This document shows positions 1 through 5,344 of a stretch of DNA of 5,344 nucleotides, in pieces. This stretch comes from Sedimentisphaerales bacterium. GTDB lineage: Bacteria > Planctomycetota > Phycisphaerae > Sedimentisphaerales > SG8-4. The DNA lies in NCBI GenBank assembly GCA_016932895.1, contig JAFGCA010000575.1:1-5344 (forward strand), written 5' to 3'. Below the pieces are notes generated by a model. It was not told the DNA's origin and searched no databases. It saw only the letters and a program-made list of their open reading frames with translations. Position 1 is the stretch's first letter. Each line of letters begins with the position of its first letter. Position numbers and translations under genes: made by a program.

Positions 1-824
1 GCGCTGTTGAAGCTGATGAGCGCCAGGCCGAGTGCGCCGTAGGCCAGCCGCTCGAGATCATCAAGGCTCACCGCCGGAAGGGCGGGCCGGGGCAGGCCGG
101 CAGGAATGGAGCCAAGGAGGGTTACGCCTCGCCCGTCCAGGCCCAGCCACAGGGAGGCGGCGATGCCCAAGGCTACTGCGACCAGGGGGCCGGGAAGCCG
201 GGGGGATAGCCGCTTAAGGACGAGCAGGAGCGCGACCGTGGTGCCTGCCACCGCCAGCGTCGGCAGATGGGTCTCTCCGAACCGCCCGGCAACCGCTGCA
301 AGCTGCCGAAAAATGCCGCCATGGGGGAGCGCGAAACCGAGCATCTTACCAAACTGCCCGACAACGATGGCCAGGGCGATCCCGTTGAGGTATCCGGCGA
401 GGATGGGCCGCGCCAGGAAGTTGGTCAGAAAGCCCAGCCGAAGGCAGCCCGCGACGATACAGAAGGCGCCGGTGATGACCGCCAGCGTCATGGCCAGGGA
501 GACGGCGCGCTCCGCGTCTCCTGCCGCCATGGGCAGGATGATGGCGGCGACGATGGTGCAGGTGGCGGCATCGGGAGCGAGGATGAGCTGACGCGAAGTC
601 CCGAACAGTGCGTAGGCGAGCAGCGGCAGGATGCTGGCATAGAGGCCGTAGACCGGCGGCAGGCCGGCGAGCTGCGAGTAGGCGATGGCCACCGGCACCG
701 CCACTGCCGCGACTGAGAAGCCGGCCACGATATCGTAGCGCAGCCAGCTCCGGTCATACCGACGGAGAACGGCAAGGCCCGGCAGGATCCTCGCGCCCGC
801 CCGAGATGGGTGGTATTCATTCAT
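1..824 (-). CDS. SulP-family anion permease (likely sulfate transporter), N-terminal part
   Basis: This is the first 274 residues of an inner-membrane SulP/SLC26-type anion permease; the gene runs off the left edge. The SulP signature is at residues 43-62 (including AYSQLAGLPPVYGLYAS), followed by YALFGTSRQL (71-80) and APDAATCTIVA (83-93), the conserved block after the first helices. Hydrophobic segments are visible near residues 32-50, 60-78, 86-101, 107-127, 139-157, 188-204 and 212-228. SulP proteins are usually 500-600 residues with a C-terminal cytoplasmic STAS domain, which would lie outside the window. The start at 824 is set by AAGGAG at 838-833, eight bases upstream; the ATG four bases further in is in another frame. 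SulP members move sulfate, bicarbonate or dicarboxylates, so sulfate is inferred from the sulfatase next door, 194 bp upstream. Family is near certain; substrate is not. Confidence 0.93.
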   Translation of the reverse strand, partial: MNEYHPSRAGARILPGLAVLRRYDRSWLRYDIVAGFSVAAVAVPVAIAYSQLAGLPPVYGLYASILPLLAYALFGTSRQLILAPDAATCTIVAAIILPMAAGDAERAVSLAMTLAVITGAFCIVAGCLRLGFLTNFLARPILAGYLNGIALAIVVGQFGKMLGFALPHGGIFRQLAAVAGRFGETHLPTLAVAGTTVALLLVLKRLSPRLPGPLVAVALGIAASLWLGLDGRGVTLLGSIPAGLPRPALPAVSLDDLERLAYGALGLALISFNS

Positions 825-1018: not shown

Positions 1019-3391
1019 TTATTGCCGGGCCATTGCGATGCGGATGACGTCCTCCGCCTTCACCATGTGGTCGCTGTTGGCCGGATCGTCGGCGATCGAG
1101 AGCAGGATGCCCTTGATCGCACCGTTGAACCGGTTGTCGCCCGCCTTGTAGTCCGGCGATACGGGCGCGCCGCTGTCCTCGCCGACGTCGCAGCCGTCAT
1201 CGGCGGAGAAGATCATCGCCAACGTGGCGTCGATATCTCCTTCGCCGGCCTTCTGGCCGTCGACGTAAAGCGTCGCCTTGCCGCCCTTGCCCATGCCGCC
1301 GCCGGCGTAGGCAAACTCCATGCGCACCTGGTGCTCGCCGGCCGGCAGCTTGTCCTTCGACTCGACGAAGAAGCTTTTGAAGCCGCCCCAGTTGTAGCAG
1401 TACTTCAGCTTTCCGTCCTTGGCGTACAGGCTCCAGCCGCCGATGTTCGCGCCCTGGGAGATGATCACGCCCTCGGCGCCTTTCTCCGGGACAACGATCT
1501 CGGCCGTCACGGAGTGCGACTTGTTCTTCAGGTTGAGCACGCAGTTCTCGCCCAGGCGACCCATGCCGGAAAAGAGCATCTGCTGTTTTCCCTTGATCAG
1601 GATCGGCCGCCCGGCGGTGTCGGGGTTGAGTTTCTCCATCAACCGATCATCCAGCGGCAATACCTTGTACCGCGTCGCCTCGATCAACCACAGGCGCTGA
1701 AGCTCGTGCAGTTTCTCCGGATTCTTCTTGGACACGTCGTTCGCCTGGCTCCAGTCGCCCGGCTCGTAGAGCTCCCACACGTCGTCGTCGAAGGCCGGCG
1801 GCTTTTCCGTCAGAGGCGCCCAGGGCGTCTTGTGATGCGTCACCGCCGTCCACCCCTTGTGGTAGATGCCGCGGTTGCCGAACATTTCGAAGTACTGGAG
1901 ATCGTGCTGCTCCGGCGCTTTCGCATCATCGAAGGCGTAAAGCATGCTCGTGCCCTCGAAGGGGTCCTGCGGGACGCCGTCCACCGATACCGGCTCGGGC
2001 AGTCCCGCCGCCTCGAGCACGGTGGGCACCACATCAATGACGTGCGTGAACTGCGAGCGGATCTCGCCCTTGGTCTTGATGCCCTTGGGCCAGGACACGA
2101 TCGTCCCGTTGCGCGTACCGCCCCAGTGGGACGCAACCTGCTTGGTCCACTGGTAGGGCGTGTTCATGGCCAGCGCCCACGCGGCGGAGTAGTGATTGTA
2201 CGACTCCGACCCGCCCAGCTTCTCCAGCCGCTCATTGAGGAACTCGGGCGTCTCGAAGCCCTGCAGCCCGTTGAAGTAGCTCATCTCGTTGAAGCAGCCG
2301 TTGATGCCGCCTTCGGCCGACGCGCCGTTGTCGCCGATGATGTAGTAGATGAGCGTGTCTTCGAAGATCTCCAGCTTCTTCAGACCCTCGATAAGGCGGC
2401 CGACATGGTGGTCGGTGTACTCCATGTAGCCGGCATAGACCTCGGCCTCGCGCGCCAGAAAAGGTTTGAACTCCTCGGGCATCTCGTCCCACCTCGGGAG
2501 TTCCTTGTTCCAGGCGGTGAGTTGACAGCCCTGCGAGACGACCCCAAGCATCTTCTGACGCGCGAGCGTCTCCTCGCGTAGCTTCTCCCAGCCCTGGTCG
2601 AACTTGCCCTTGTACTTGTCCGCCCATTCCTTCGGCACATGGTGCGGCGCGTGGGTGGCGCCGGGTGCGAAGTAGACGAAGAAGGGCTTGTCGGGAGCGA
2701 GGGCCTTCTGCCGGGATATCCAGTTCATGGCCTTGGTGGTCATGTCATCCACGAGGTGATAGCCCTCCTCGGGAGTCTTGTCCGGTTCGACGGGGGTGGT
2801 GCCCTCATAGAGGCTCGGGTACCACTGGTTGGCTTCGCCGCCGATAAAGCCGTAGAAATATTCGAAACCGCCGCCGCCCGCGGGCCAGGCGTCGAAAGGC
2901 CCGACCGGGCTCGTCTGCCAGACCGGCACCTCGTGGCACTTGCCGAACATGGCCGTGTTGTAGCCGTTCAGCTTGAGCGTCGTGGCCAGCGGCGCCATCG
3001 AGTTAGGCCGCACCGAGCAGTAGCCCGGAGCGCCGGTGGCGATTTCGGTGATGCCGCCCATGCCGGCGGAGTGGTGATTGCGCCCGGTCAGCAGCGCCTG
3101 CCGCGTGGGCGAGCAGAGCGCCGTGGTATGGAAGCGATTGAGCTTCAAGCCCTCCGTGGCCAGCTTCTCCGCGGTCGGCGTCTGGCAGGGACCGCCGAAA
3201 GCGCTGGACGACCCGAATCCGGCGTCGTCTATCAGCACGATCAGCACGTTCGGCGCGCCCTTGGGCGGCCGCAGTTGAGGAATCGGTGGGAACTTGCTGT
3301 TCGGGTCCTTCGCGTCGTACGCGATGAACTTCGGCTTCTCTGTGTTCGGCATCGGCAGATGCGAACGGTGTTTGTTGTCGGGTGTGCTCAT
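1019..3391 (-). CDS. Type I sulfatase (arylsulfatase-like), formylglycine-dependent, cytoplasmic
   Basis: This 790-residue enzyme of the alkaline-phosphatase fold should hydrolyse a sulfate ester to alcohol plus sulfate. Metal ligands are visible as IDDAGFG (Asp55, Asp56) and GDNG (Asp354, Asn355). The sulfatase signature is ALCSPTRQALLTG (residues 91-103), with Cys93 the residue oxidised to formylglycine and Arg97 stabilising it. Other likely active-site residues are Lys151 and His153 (GKCHE), His247 (GATHAPHH), and Lys417/His422 around ASHWGGTR. Residues from about 600 form a glycine- and beta-rich extension absent from shorter arylsulfatases such as Pseudomonas AtsA, probably a LamG-like sandwich. 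There is no signal peptide, so the protein is inferred to be cytosolic. The start MSTPDNK is chosen for AAGGAG at 3405-3400, eight bases upstream; the reading frame stays open to 3442 but that extension is leader. The maturase upstream on the same strand fits a Cys-type sulfatase. The true substrate cannot be read from sequence. Confidence 0.95.
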   Translation of the reverse strand: MSTPDNKHRSHLPMPNTEKPKFIAYDAKDPNSKFPPIPQLRPPKGAPNVLIVLIDDAGFGSSSAFGGPCQTPTAEKLATEGLKLNRFHTTALCSPTRQALLTGRNHHSAGMGGITEIATGAPGYCSVRPNSMAPLATTLKLNGYNTAMFGKCHEVPVWQTSPVGPFDAWPAGGGGFEYFYGFIGGEANQWYPSLYEGTTPVEPDKTPEEGYHLVDDMTTKAMNWISRQKALAPDKPFFVYFAPGATHAPHHVPKEWADKYKGKFDQGWEKLREETLARQKMLGVVSQGCQLTAWNKELPRWDEMPEEFKPFLAREAEVYAGYMEYTDHHVGRLIEGLKKLEIFEDTLIYYIIGDNGASAEGGINGCFNEMSYFNGLQGFETPEFLNERLEKLGGSESYNHYSAAWALAMNTPYQWTKQVASHWGGTRNGTIVSWPKGIKTKGEIRSQFTHVIDVVPTVLEAAGLPEPVSVDGVPQDPFEGTSMLYAFDDAKAPEQHDLQYFEMFGNRGIYHKGWTAVTHHKTPWAPLTEKPPAFDDDVWELYEPGDWSQANDVSKKNPEKLHELQRLWLIEATRYKVLPLDDRLMEKLNPDTAGRPILIKGKQQMLFSGMGRLGENCVLNLKNKSHSVTAEIVVPEKGAEGVIISQGANIGGWSLYAKDGKLKYCYNWGGFKSFFVESKDKLPAGEHQVRMEFAYAGGGMGKGGKATLYVDGQKAGEGDIDATLAMIFSADDGCDVGEDSGAPVSPDYKAGDNRFNGAIKGILLSIADDPANSDHMVKAEDVIRIAMARQ

Positions 3392-3474
3392 GTCTATCTC
3401 TCCTTTTGTGGTTTGTTTTCTACGTTTCTTGTTTACTCGCAACAGGACTCTGCTTGACTGCGTATGTTATGATC
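3380..3474 (-). repeat. Left copy of a degenerate direct repeat (maturase tail, leader and start)
   Basis: This copy matches 4963-5056 in the same orientation. The block 3420-3474 is identical to 5002-5056 at 49 of 55 positions without gaps, and the 16 bases at 3380-3395, covering the ATG and the next codons, are identical to 4963-4978. The leader between them is 28 bases here and 27 in the other copy, and is similar but not identical. It supplies the ribosome binding site and start of the sulfatase. Confidence 0.9.
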
Positions 3475-3491
3475 CTCTCAACATAACGGCC
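3420..3491 (-). pseudogene. Relic of the 3' end of a sulfatase-maturase gene
   Basis: Read on the minus strand, these 24 codons, including a TAG stop, encode GRYVERIITY followed by AVKQSPVASKQET. The real maturase ends with GHYADEIMTS followed by AVKEIPVASRQET. Fourteen of 23 residues are identical, several differences are conservative, and the stop lies at the same place. The similarity reaches further at protein level than the clear DNA repeat, so this was probably once translated as the end of a separate, diverged maturase gene or a duplicate of this one. No SPASM cysteines precede it; upstream the sequence passes straight into the 3' end of the DUF1254 gene in a different frame. It has no start of its own and is unlikely to be expressed. 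Confidence 0.7.
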
Positions 3492-3513
3492 CTCCTCCCC
3501 ATAGGACGTCCAT

Positions 3514-4929
3514 TTACTTTACACGCGTCAGCGGGGGTTGCTTCCAGGAGCCATTCAGTGCAGCTTCTTCAGGCCAATAGATGCGCATCGCTACCCAGAA
3601 TGGCCCACTTGGAGCAGGCAACCAGTTAGACTCCTTTTCTGCCCCAGGCGATTTCGCTTGGATGTAGAGCGTCAGACCATCGTCCGCATCGCGCTTGAGG
3701 TTAGGGAGCATGGGAGAGTTGATGAGATATCGGTTGATCGGATTGGCCACCAGAAGGCTTTCTGGCAATCCATACATCGTGACCGACCAAAATGCATGAG
3801 CCGGAGGCAACTGGCCCGGTGCAAAGCGCAGGGTGTACCGATTCTTCGATGCATCCAATTCTCCACCATCTGCATCCTTTCGATAAAATGGATAGATGGC
3901 CTCCTGCTTCGAGTTTCCATAGAGACCGATTACAGCCGCAGCAAAGCGGTATAGGTAGTTGTTCTTCAGATATTCTCGCGTGCCGAAGAGGTCGCCGCTT
4001 GTCACTTTGTCGCCCGCAAAATCGGTCTTTTCAAAGGCAGCGAACTCCTCCCAAGCATCCGCCATACCTCCGGCCAATGCCTCTTTCATTTCTGGTGTGA
4101 GCTTTGCACCATCAATAGCCTTACCACTTCCCACATTGATCTTGGCGAAACGGGCCATTAGATCGACCTCGGAGGGTACCGTTGGACAGAATTGCAGCAC
4201 GAAGCTCAGGACATTGAAGAACTCTGGTGATGTCTTCTGTGTTTCAGGCGTGAGCCGAGGCATAGAACCTTTTACTAACGGCTTAACGGGAGCTGGATGA
4301 CCTAGAAAAGCCGAAAGAGGCTGCACTTTGTAACCCGCTTGCACCTTCTTCACATTGTCGATATCACTGGGATCAAAGAGTTGGGTCCGATAGGTGACGA
4401 ATACCGCTTCGGTTTCCGAGCGGAATACCTTCTTGAAGCCTTCGGGTATGTCACCTGTCCAGCCGGGTCCGACAACGAGAAAGTCACCAGCCTCATTCCC
4501 GGTGGCACGACTGCCGATGTAATCGAAATTATGGGTGTAGGCGTCGATCAGCTGAATCGAGTAATACCGGTTCGGTTCAACTGCAGGTACCGTCAAGACA
4601 ATAGGTTCAGCACGCAGATCCAGCCCCGCCACCGAATAAGGCGTGTCTGAGTTCGGCGACACAATTGCCCTGTCGTCCGGCGTGAAGACCCGCGGAATAT
4701 TGCGTATGTGATTCCAGGGGGCCTTGAACTCAGGGTTATCGATATCCGAGAAATAAGTGTACATGACGCGAGCCGCGTCAACCATCGGATAGCCATAAAT
4801 GTAAGCCTCCTTGGCGATGGCTCGGGCTTCTGTGGGGCTTACTTCGATTTCGGTGCTTGCCTCCGAGAACGGGGCAACTGCGAGCGTCGCCAAGATACAG
4901 ACGCAGACTGTAGCAGTCGTGAGTTTCAT
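3514..4929 (-). CDS. Exported DUF1254/DUF1214-domain protein of unknown function
   Basis: The protein has 471 residues from this start. It opens with a typical Sec signal peptide: MKLTT, a hydrophobic stretch ATVCVCILATLAVAP, then FSEAS, so the mature protein should be periplasmic or secreted. The DUF1254 domain follows, with NIPRVFTPDDRAIVSPNSDT, then RYYSIQLIDAYTHNFDYIG and DFLVVGPGW. The C-terminal DUF1214 domain is marked by FAPGQLPPAHAFWSVTMYG, NRYLI and, near the end, WLPAPSGPFWVAMRIYWP with a final NGSW. The two domains occur together in a widespread bacterial family with no established enzymatic activity known to me. An in-frame ATG at 4974 (MSTPKND) would add a 15-residue charged leader. 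I prefer 4929 because it gives a normal signal peptide and has its own AAGGAG at 4944-4939, nine bases upstream. The gene is less GC-rich than its neighbours and is bracketed by the direct repeats. Its position between maturase and sulfatase suggests co-transcription; the role is unknown. Confidence 0.9.
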   Translation of the reverse strand: MKLTTATVCVCILATLAVAPFSEASTEIEVSPTEARAIAKEAYIYGYPMVDAARVMYTYFSDIDNPEFKAPWNHIRNIPRVFTPDDRAIVSPNSDTPYSVAGLDLRAEPIVLTVPAVEPNRYYSIQLIDAYTHNFDYIGSRATGNEAGDFLVVGPGWTGDIPEGFKKVFRSETEAVFVTYRTQLFDPSDIDNVKKVQAGYKVQPLSAFLGHPAPVKPLVKGSMPRLTPETQKTSPEFFNVLSFVLQFCPTVPSEVDLMARFAKINVGSGKAIDGAKLTPEMKEALAGGMADAWEEFAAFEKTDFAGDKVTSGDLFGTREYLKNNYLYRFAAAVIGLYGNSKQEAIYPFYRKDADGGELDASKNRYTLRFAPGQLPPAHAFWSVTMYGLPESLLVANPINRYLINSPMLPNLKRDADDGLTLYIQAKSPGAEKESNWLPAPSGPFWVAMRIYWPEEAALNGSWKQPPLTRVK

Positions 4930-4986
4930 TCTCTCTTTCTCCTTTTGTGTCTTATCGTTCTTGGGTGTGCTCATGTCTCTTTCCTT
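4927..4986 (-). promoter_or_regulatory. Double translation start region of the DUF1254 gene
   Basis: Two in-frame starts, each with a ribosome binding site, lie 45 bases apart. The upstream ATG (4974-4972) has AAGGAA at 4986-4981 and begins with the codons for MSTP, as the sulfatase does. The downstream ATG (4929-4927) has AAGGAG at 4944-4939 and begins the signal peptide. The sequence CACAAAAGGAGA before the downstream ATG also occurs in the sulfatase leader, so the region looks like two stacked versions of one initiation module. Which start is used decides whether the export signal is N-terminal or preceded by 15 charged residues. Confidence 0.55.
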
Positions 4987-5056
4987 TTTCTGGTGTGTCT
5001 TCTACGTTTCTTGTCTACTCGCAACAGGAATCTCCTTGACTGCTGATGTCATGATC
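4963..5056 (-). repeat. Right copy of a degenerate direct repeat (maturase tail, leader and start)
   Basis: This is the counterpart of 3380-3474. Here the coding part is the real 3' end of the maturase gene (stop TAG at 5004-5002), followed by a 27-base leader and an ATG with codons for MSTP in frame with the DUF1254 protein. The two copies lie about 1.58 kb apart, and the DUF1254 gene is the only gene between them. Confidence 0.9.
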
Positions 5057-5344
5057 TCATCGGCGTAATGCCCACGCTTCAGAAGATCGGCCATCTTTCG
5101 CATCGCCGGCTCAGTGTGTTCGAAAAACGCTTTGAGCCCCGAGCATAGCCAGTTGAGACCGGGCTCGCCATCGGGTGTGCGAAGGATGCGGTTCTTGGGG
5201 CACTCGCCATGACACGTGAACCGGTACCGGCACTGCCGACAGTACCCGGGGAGAGTTGACTGTTTGGTCTGGCCGAACGCGATCTGTTTGGCGCCGTTGA
5301 CCATTTCCACGAGCGGGGTCTGCGTGATATTCCCCAGAAGGTAC
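5002..5344 (-). CDS. Anaerobic sulfatase-maturating enzyme (radical SAM, SPASM domain), C-terminal part
   Basis: Only the last 113 residues are in the window; the radical-SAM core with its CxxxCxxC motif lies off the right edge. The visible part begins YLLGNITQTPLVEMV and carries the SPASM cysteine array YCRQCRYRFTCHGECPKNR, then TPDGEPGLNWLC: spacing C-x2-C-x5-C-x3-C-x18-C. In this family these cysteines help hold two auxiliary 4Fe-4S clusters. The GECPKNR and TPDGEPGLN segments with the following FFEH are characteristic of anSME/AslB-type maturases rather than other SPASM proteins. The enzyme oxidises the active-site Cys or Ser of type I sulfatases to formylglycine in the cytoplasm before folding; its obvious client is the Cys93-type sulfatase in this block. 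The gene ends 27 bases before the upstream ATG of the DUF1254 gene, consistent with one operon. The GTG at 5310 is an internal Val codon, not a start. Confidence 0.94.
   Translation of the reverse strand, partial: YLLGNITQTPLVEMVNGAKQIAFGQTKQSTLPGYCRQCRYRFTCHGECPKNRILRTPDGEPGLNWLCSGLKAFFEHTEPAMRKMADLLKRGHYADEIMTSAVKEIPVASRQET

Follow-up and report, generated by a model that had tools for sequence, protein, structure and literature searches.

We analyzed a 5,344-nucleotide stretch of DNA from a Sedimentisphaerales bacterium (contig JAFGCA010000575.1 of assembly GCA_016932895.1), which makes up one entire, presumably metagenomic, contig and is referred to here as the window. Its four genes all lie on the minus strand, in the order maturase C terminus (anSME type), DUF1254/DUF1214 gene, arylsulfatase gene, and SulP gene. 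The repeat and tail comparisons described below support the original prediction that the window contains two copies of a maturase-sulfatase junction and that the DUF1254 gene is the material between them.

Profile matches also agreed with the names first given to these genes, a DUF1254 gene (now with a DUF1214 domain as well), the C terminus of an anaerobic sulfatase maturase, and a sulfatase. The maturase (radical SAM/SPASM, anSME type) is represented by its C-terminal 113 residues at positions 5002 to 5343, and the gene continues past the contig edge. This fragment met SPASM-type C-terminal profiles at positions 277 to 362 of the 363 in TIGR03942 (E = 4e-24) and 305 to 404 of the 412 in PRK13745.1 (E = 4e-31) and also matched the anSME structure PDB 4k36 (E = 7e-4). 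Because only 113 residues of the maturase are in the window, the profile scores fall below the full-length cutoffs; the N-terminal part, where the radical SAM core with its CxxxCxxC cluster would be expected, is outside the contig. The DUF1254/DUF1214 gene, counted from its likely native ATG, spans positions 3514 to 4929 and encodes 471 amino acids. Both of its domains (PF06863, E = 1e-45; PF06742, E = 2e-31) exceeded the Pfam cutoffs (155.4 bits versus 22.2 and 109.3 versus 25), and it has a solved relative in PDB 3u07 (E = 5.5e-38); the nearest listed DUF1254 proteins, P0002 to P0007, are 78 to 80% identical. The arylsulfatase (positions 1019 to 3391, 790 amino acids; PF00884, E = 1.3e-67) contains the sequence CSPTR, of the form C-x-P-x-R that we take to be the cysteine-type sulfatase motif, and its listed homologues are at most 87% identical to it, the nearest, such as P0122, P0123, and P0125, being at 85 to 87%.

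Two direct repeats had been reported at the edges of the DUF1254 gene, a 49-of-55 ungapped match between 3420 to 3474 and 5002 to 5056 and a 16-of-16 match between 3380 to 3395 and 4963 to 4978. Both matches are exact as described, and the repeat is real, but its ungapped part is longer than 55 bases. Positions 3404 to 3491 (copy B) and 4986 to 5073 (copy A) are identical at 71 of 88 bases (81%), with 58 of 72 identical in the maturase tail and 13 of 16 in the leader. The best ungapped score was 54, and none of 200 dinucleotide-preserving shuffles reached it (mean, 10.3; maximum, 15). A gapped local alignment extends the likeness to 3368 to 3534 versus 4947 to 5109, its outer parts being weak, so that on the side of copy B it may reach the DUF1254 stop codon. 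The longest exact word common to both junction regions is the 16-base GGGTGTGCTCATGTCT. Each copy reads, in order, maturase end, TAG stop, leader, ATG, and MSTP codons, and the maturase tail ends in GHYADEIMTSAVKEIPVASRQET in copy A and in GRYVERIITYAVKQSPVASKQET in copy B, each directly before the stop and the start of a leader. Leaders are present in both copies and ribosome-binding sites resemble one another, as they might be had the repeat arisen by convergence or as a shared regulatory leader rather than by duplication. However, maturase coding tail makes up 72 of the 88 bases, with identity at 58 of these, and that tail agrees at no more than 3 of 15 residues with 120 other maturases, which leaves convergence an extremely improbable explanation. 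Additionally, 12 bases of the DUF1254 leader (positions 4938 to 4949, minus strand; CACAAAAGGAGA on the coding strand, TCTCCTTTTGTG on the plus strand) recur in the sulfatase leader at 3399 to 3410. Shared words of at least 12 bases arose in 13 of 2,000 mononucleotide shuffles, and this likeness is only suggestive as a mark of the crossover point.

In copy A, the maturase end is the live one. The sulfatase start that follows it (MSTPKNDK, positions 4951 to 4974, minus strand) shares the 16-base word with the true sulfatase start and is in frame with the DUF1254 gene, upstream of that gene's likely native ATG. We take these codons to be vestigial sulfatase sequence because the homologues of the DUF1254 protein start near the inner ATG at 4929; only 1 of the 119 listed starts with MST, and its continuation is different. 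This inner ATG is preceded by its own AAAAGGAG, and the sequence that begins there resembles a signal peptide, as judged by eye. Of the three starts at the junctions, both live ones (DUF1254 at 4929 and sulfatase at 3391) are preceded by AAAAGGAG and the relic MSTP start is preceded by AAGGAAAG; the SulP ATG is likewise preceded by AAAAAGGAG. The DUF1254 gene probably starts at 4929 and its product is probably exported. Thus, of the claim that each copy is a complete module with ATG and MSTP codons, the reading order stands in both copies, but the DUF1254 gene probably does not start at the MSTP codons. A longer form of the protein, with 15 extra residues from the in-frame relic start, is possible but probably minor, since the ribosome site of that start is weaker.

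Copy B shows the opposite pattern. Here it is the sulfatase start that is native. The R-S/T-H-L/I-P motif that comes after it occurs among the first 60 residues of 110 of 119 listed sulfatase homologues, and 27 of the 119 start with MST and 3 with MSTP. The maturase end of copy B looks like a decayed relic. The C-terminal motif G-x-x-A/P-D/E-E-I/V was present in all 120 maturases compared (as GRYADEIM in 88 and with R in second position in 112). Copy A reads GHYADEIM, whereas copy B reads GRYVERII, which keeps G-R-Y and I and has V-E-R in place of A-D-E. Copy B thereby has the R that is common in the family where copy A has H, and this R may be a retention or a chance change. Over 23 codons, the proportions of nonsynonymous (pN) and synonymous (pS) differences between the copies were 0.195 and 0.231 (10.5 and 3.5 differences, respectively), a ratio consistent, on few sites, with one copy being unconstrained.

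The residues that follow the motif bear on the origin of the two copies. In this 15-residue tail, 11 positions are the same in copies A and B. Tails after the motif vary freely, and the best of the 120 other maturases, which were the best listed matches to a relative's maturase and leave nearer tails unsampled, agrees with copy A at 3 of 15. Given this difference in agreement, the copies share one origin later than the split from the 120 maturases, whether in one junction or in two close paralogues. That the two tails come from anciently separate maturases was rejected on the same numbers.

A chimeric contig would be another source of a repeat, and the window is indeed one whole contig of 5,344 bases. 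However, the copies share no exact word of more than 16 bases, a short length by the standards of assembly words, and an assembly artefact would not yield a diverged repeat with complementary halves decayed. We therefore consider a chimera very improbable.

The genes also differ in composition. The GC content at third codon positions (GC3) is 0.578 in the DUF1254 gene, 0.881 in the sulfatase gene, 0.814 in the SulP gene, and 0.693 in the maturase part. The DUF1254 gene is the outlier, and this fits a separate origin for it.

The junction is duplicated, one half of each copy looks like a relic, and the DUF1254 gene stands apart in composition. Together, these features are best read as the product of an insertion, in which the DUF1254 gene probably entered between a maturase and a sulfatase and their junction was duplicated in the process. 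A homologous stretch lies on both sides of the insert, and a resident gene end is displaced. We infer that all of this took place in one event, in which a DUF1254/DUF1214 gene, with a ribosome-binding site of its own, would have come to lie between the maturase gene and its sulfatase gene, leaving two copies of maturase end, stop, leader, and first sulfatase codons. Upstream of the DUF1254 gene, the maturase end would have remained in use while the sulfatase start turned relic; downstream, the sulfatase start would have remained in use while the maturase end turned relic and decayed. One insertion that duplicates the junction would account for the live half in each copy and for the closeness of both insert edges to the junction, a few dozen codons at most. 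The route may have been recombination anchored in junction homology at one end with a nonhomologous other end, as in homology-facilitated illegitimate recombination; template switching or single-crossover integration would leave the same trace.

The original prediction had offered such an entry by recombination as one of two routes, the other being a tandem duplication of the maturase-sulfatase pair, after which the DUF1254 gene replaced the inner sulfatase and maturase or these decayed and were deleted, so that two junctions were left. Insertion fits better and tandem duplication less well because insertion does not require that about 3.6 kb of coding sequence, from a sulfatase and a maturase, was lost with an end close to the junction and because the DUF1254 gene is a compositional outlier. 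Tandem duplication would end in the same arrangement, erosion does occur here, as the decayed tail of copy B demonstrates, and sulfatases of this family can adjoin, as with three sulfatase matches side by side in one fetched locus (L032). Nevertheless, it needs a duplication of about 3.6 kb (taking the maturase length from locus L077, described below), an insertion, and losses, and the edges of those losses would have to lie no farther than about 8 codons from the sulfatase start and no farther than 24 to about 36 codons from the maturase end. No fetched locus had a doubled pair, although one could be missed, since most loci carry 1.5 kb of flank. We regard this route as possible but doubtful.

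An integrative element that used the maturase 3' end as its attachment site, brought a substitute 3' end, and later lost all but the DUF1254 gene would leave the copies as worn attL and attR sites. Integration into gene ends commonly leaves such a trace, with the displaced original next to the restored 3' end, and the size of the repeat is compatible with it. Against this, the DUF1254 gene fills nearly all of the insert (3514 to 4929 of 3492 to 4985), and no integrase or transposase was found there; the other frames overlap the DUF1254 gene, reach at most 138 amino acids, and were not compared with families. The likeness also covers the leader and first codons of the neighboring gene, and further junction copies were not found, either as the exact block pattern in viral contigs, for copy B in plasmids, or for copy A in phages. 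An integrative element is thus quite unlikely. The suggestion that the repeats could let the DUF1254 gene be deleted cleanly gained no support here; deletion between repeats with 81% identity and a longest exact run of 16 bases would be inefficient.

To place the arrangement among relatives, sulfatase queries were run over sets of 10, 398, 250, 200, 149, 249, 38, 6, and 6 genomes (the last two being the same 6), with E-value limits from 1e-50 to 1e-300, a maturase query was run over 300 genomes, and DUF1254 queries were run over 189 and 200. This gave a count of 1,995 genomes, some searched repeatedly. A maturase directly before a sulfatase, one of two orders that the original prediction had proposed to look for, was found without a DUF1254 gene in two fetched genomes. 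One is an Azoarcus metagenome-assembled genome (G004; loci L015 and L077), in which the sulfatase is 73% and the maturase tail 58% identical to those of the window; in the other (L059), these values are 42% and 60%. The other order that had been proposed, maturase-sulfatase-maturase-sulfatase, appeared in no fetched locus, and in none did a DUF1254 gene stand between maturase and sulfatase, with flanks of just 1.5 kb in most of them. Other orders were sulfatase then maturase (L009/L019 and L069) and divergent pairs (L039/L089, and L087 and L088 with distant sulfatase matches of 31%). The plasmid sulfatases L043 to L045 (61 to 71% identical) had no maturase or DUF1254 match in their fetched flanks, and plasmid maturase tails were found below 60% identity only. 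Among viral contigs, L014 matched the window proteins without a maturase or DUF1254 match and another protein query gave none; a further viral contig, L108, was also matched by a window protein query. The sulfatase in L041 (G547), of the arylsulfatase family, has one in-frame TAG.

Several observations weigh against an insertion at the junction. No relative that was found is near enough to provide an empty site that can be compared base by base, as the L077 leader differs and both L077 and L059 are too distant. Among the loci found with the maturase query, 6 of 10 had no sulfatase match in their 1.5-kb flanks. The nearest whole-genome sulfatases, L063 (78%), L072 (78%), and L073/L079 (84%), had no maturase match in the fetched DNA (the L079 contig terminates within the sulfatase), and the maturase-sulfatase pair is thus not a fixed unit. 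The last 114 bases of the maturase also have a low GC3 (0.55), so there is no sharp compositional edge at the DUF1254 gene. Furthermore, the 120 maturases are only about 60% identical to the window fragment, and recombination with a close paralogue remains compatible with the tails. Finally, flanking direct repeats like those of the window were found at none of 22 DUF1254 loci (with L102 among them and G857 omitted), where the best scores were 9 to 21 versus 54 on segments of somewhat differing length, which gives no sign of a recurrent process. No intact maturase motif was found around these loci either, although the pattern used would miss a decayed tail like that of copy B.

The DUF1254 queries themselves gave 22 loci in 21 genomes (13, 4, and 5 further, with repeats omitted). 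In 4 of these 22 (L003, L006, L009, and L093/L107), a sulfatase-family match lay in the fetched DNA, with flanks from less than 1 to 8 kb. The order of the window, DUF1254 then sulfatase on one strand, was seen in L093/L107 and in L102, which came from a sulfatase query and stands outside the 4 of 22. The sulfatase precedes the DUF1254 gene in L003, and L006 and L009 have the two genes in divergent orientation. In the Azoarcus genome, a DUF1254 gene lies about 17 kb from the maturase-sulfatase pair on the same contig. Two DUF1254 genes stand in tandem in L002 (8001 to 10910) and in L013 (8001 to 10834). DUF1254 genes thus recur near arylsulfatases of the window's family in unrelated genomes and in several orientations (L003/L103, L006, L009, L093/L107, and L102). 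A functional link is therefore plausible, as is a selective reason behind the arrival of the DUF1254 gene in the window. A full-text search of one library found no paper joining DUF1254 and sulfatase. More than the repeat, this repeated neighborhood could offer an initial clue to what DUF1254 does.

A broader proposal is that DUF1254 genes are single-gene cassettes that favor sulfatase-maturase junctions owing to a role in the same pathway, the duplicated junction being the footprint of repeatable, integrase-free placement. If true, an accessory gene would be placed between an enzyme and its activating enzyme with neither broken. We consider the cassette proposal quite unlikely.

With regard to expression, the maturase-DUF1254-sulfatase string on one strand is probably cotranscribed. 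The genes may form one transcription unit for the use of sulfate esters, in which the maturase would activate the cysteine-type sulfatase. No sigma-70-like promoter site was found in 3300 to 5344 (1.6 expected), which neither proves nor excludes such a unit, and the same region has three terminator-like sites (1.9 expected). The fourth gene, truncated by the contig edge, encodes 274 amino acids of a SulP-family anion permease (positions 3 to 824, minus strand; PF00916, E = 2e-57; TIGR00815, E = 8e-53, under the full-length cutoff), which may move sulfate or another anion. In L081/L101 (G493), a 74-residue SulP match (77%) is followed about 470 bases later by a maturase with 76% identity to the one in L077, and the 12 kb fetched contain no match to the window sulfatase. 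The window arylsulfatase is about 80% identical to proteins (P0122 to P0240) of sources named Falsiroseomonas, Roseiarcus, Pseudanabaena, and Syntrophorhabdaceae, which suggests that it has spread horizontally over a wide range of organisms. On the plus strand, a 519-residue open frame (1022 to 2581) runs antisense to the sulfatase and is most likely a by-product of the high GC3.

The window holds what is best read as a well-preserved scar from a known type of rearrangement, an ordinary event rather than a new system, and its worth is that the scar can be read: a gene probably entered the middle of a gene string with both neighbors left intact. In beside-gene terms, it resembles the sulfatase-anSME gene pairs such as L077 and L059, in which a maturase stands beside a sulfatase, but it has a DUF1254 gene between the two, an order seen in no other fetched locus. 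Like rhs loci with C-terminal displacement, it keeps a displaced 3' gene end behind a newer insert; in the window, the displaced end comes from a maturase, and what was inserted is a gene in its own right instead of a replacement C terminus. Another parallel is homology-facilitated illegitimate recombination, proposed for the type VI secretion system effector-immunity arrays of Vibrio cholerae (PMC5361080). There, as would hold in the window, a conserved stretch anchors the incoming DNA at one end, no homology is involved in the joining at the other, and part of the resident genes is left as a remnant downstream of the newcomer. The arrays leave whole immunity genes, whereas the window keeps only a short piece from the end of one gene and another from the start of the next.

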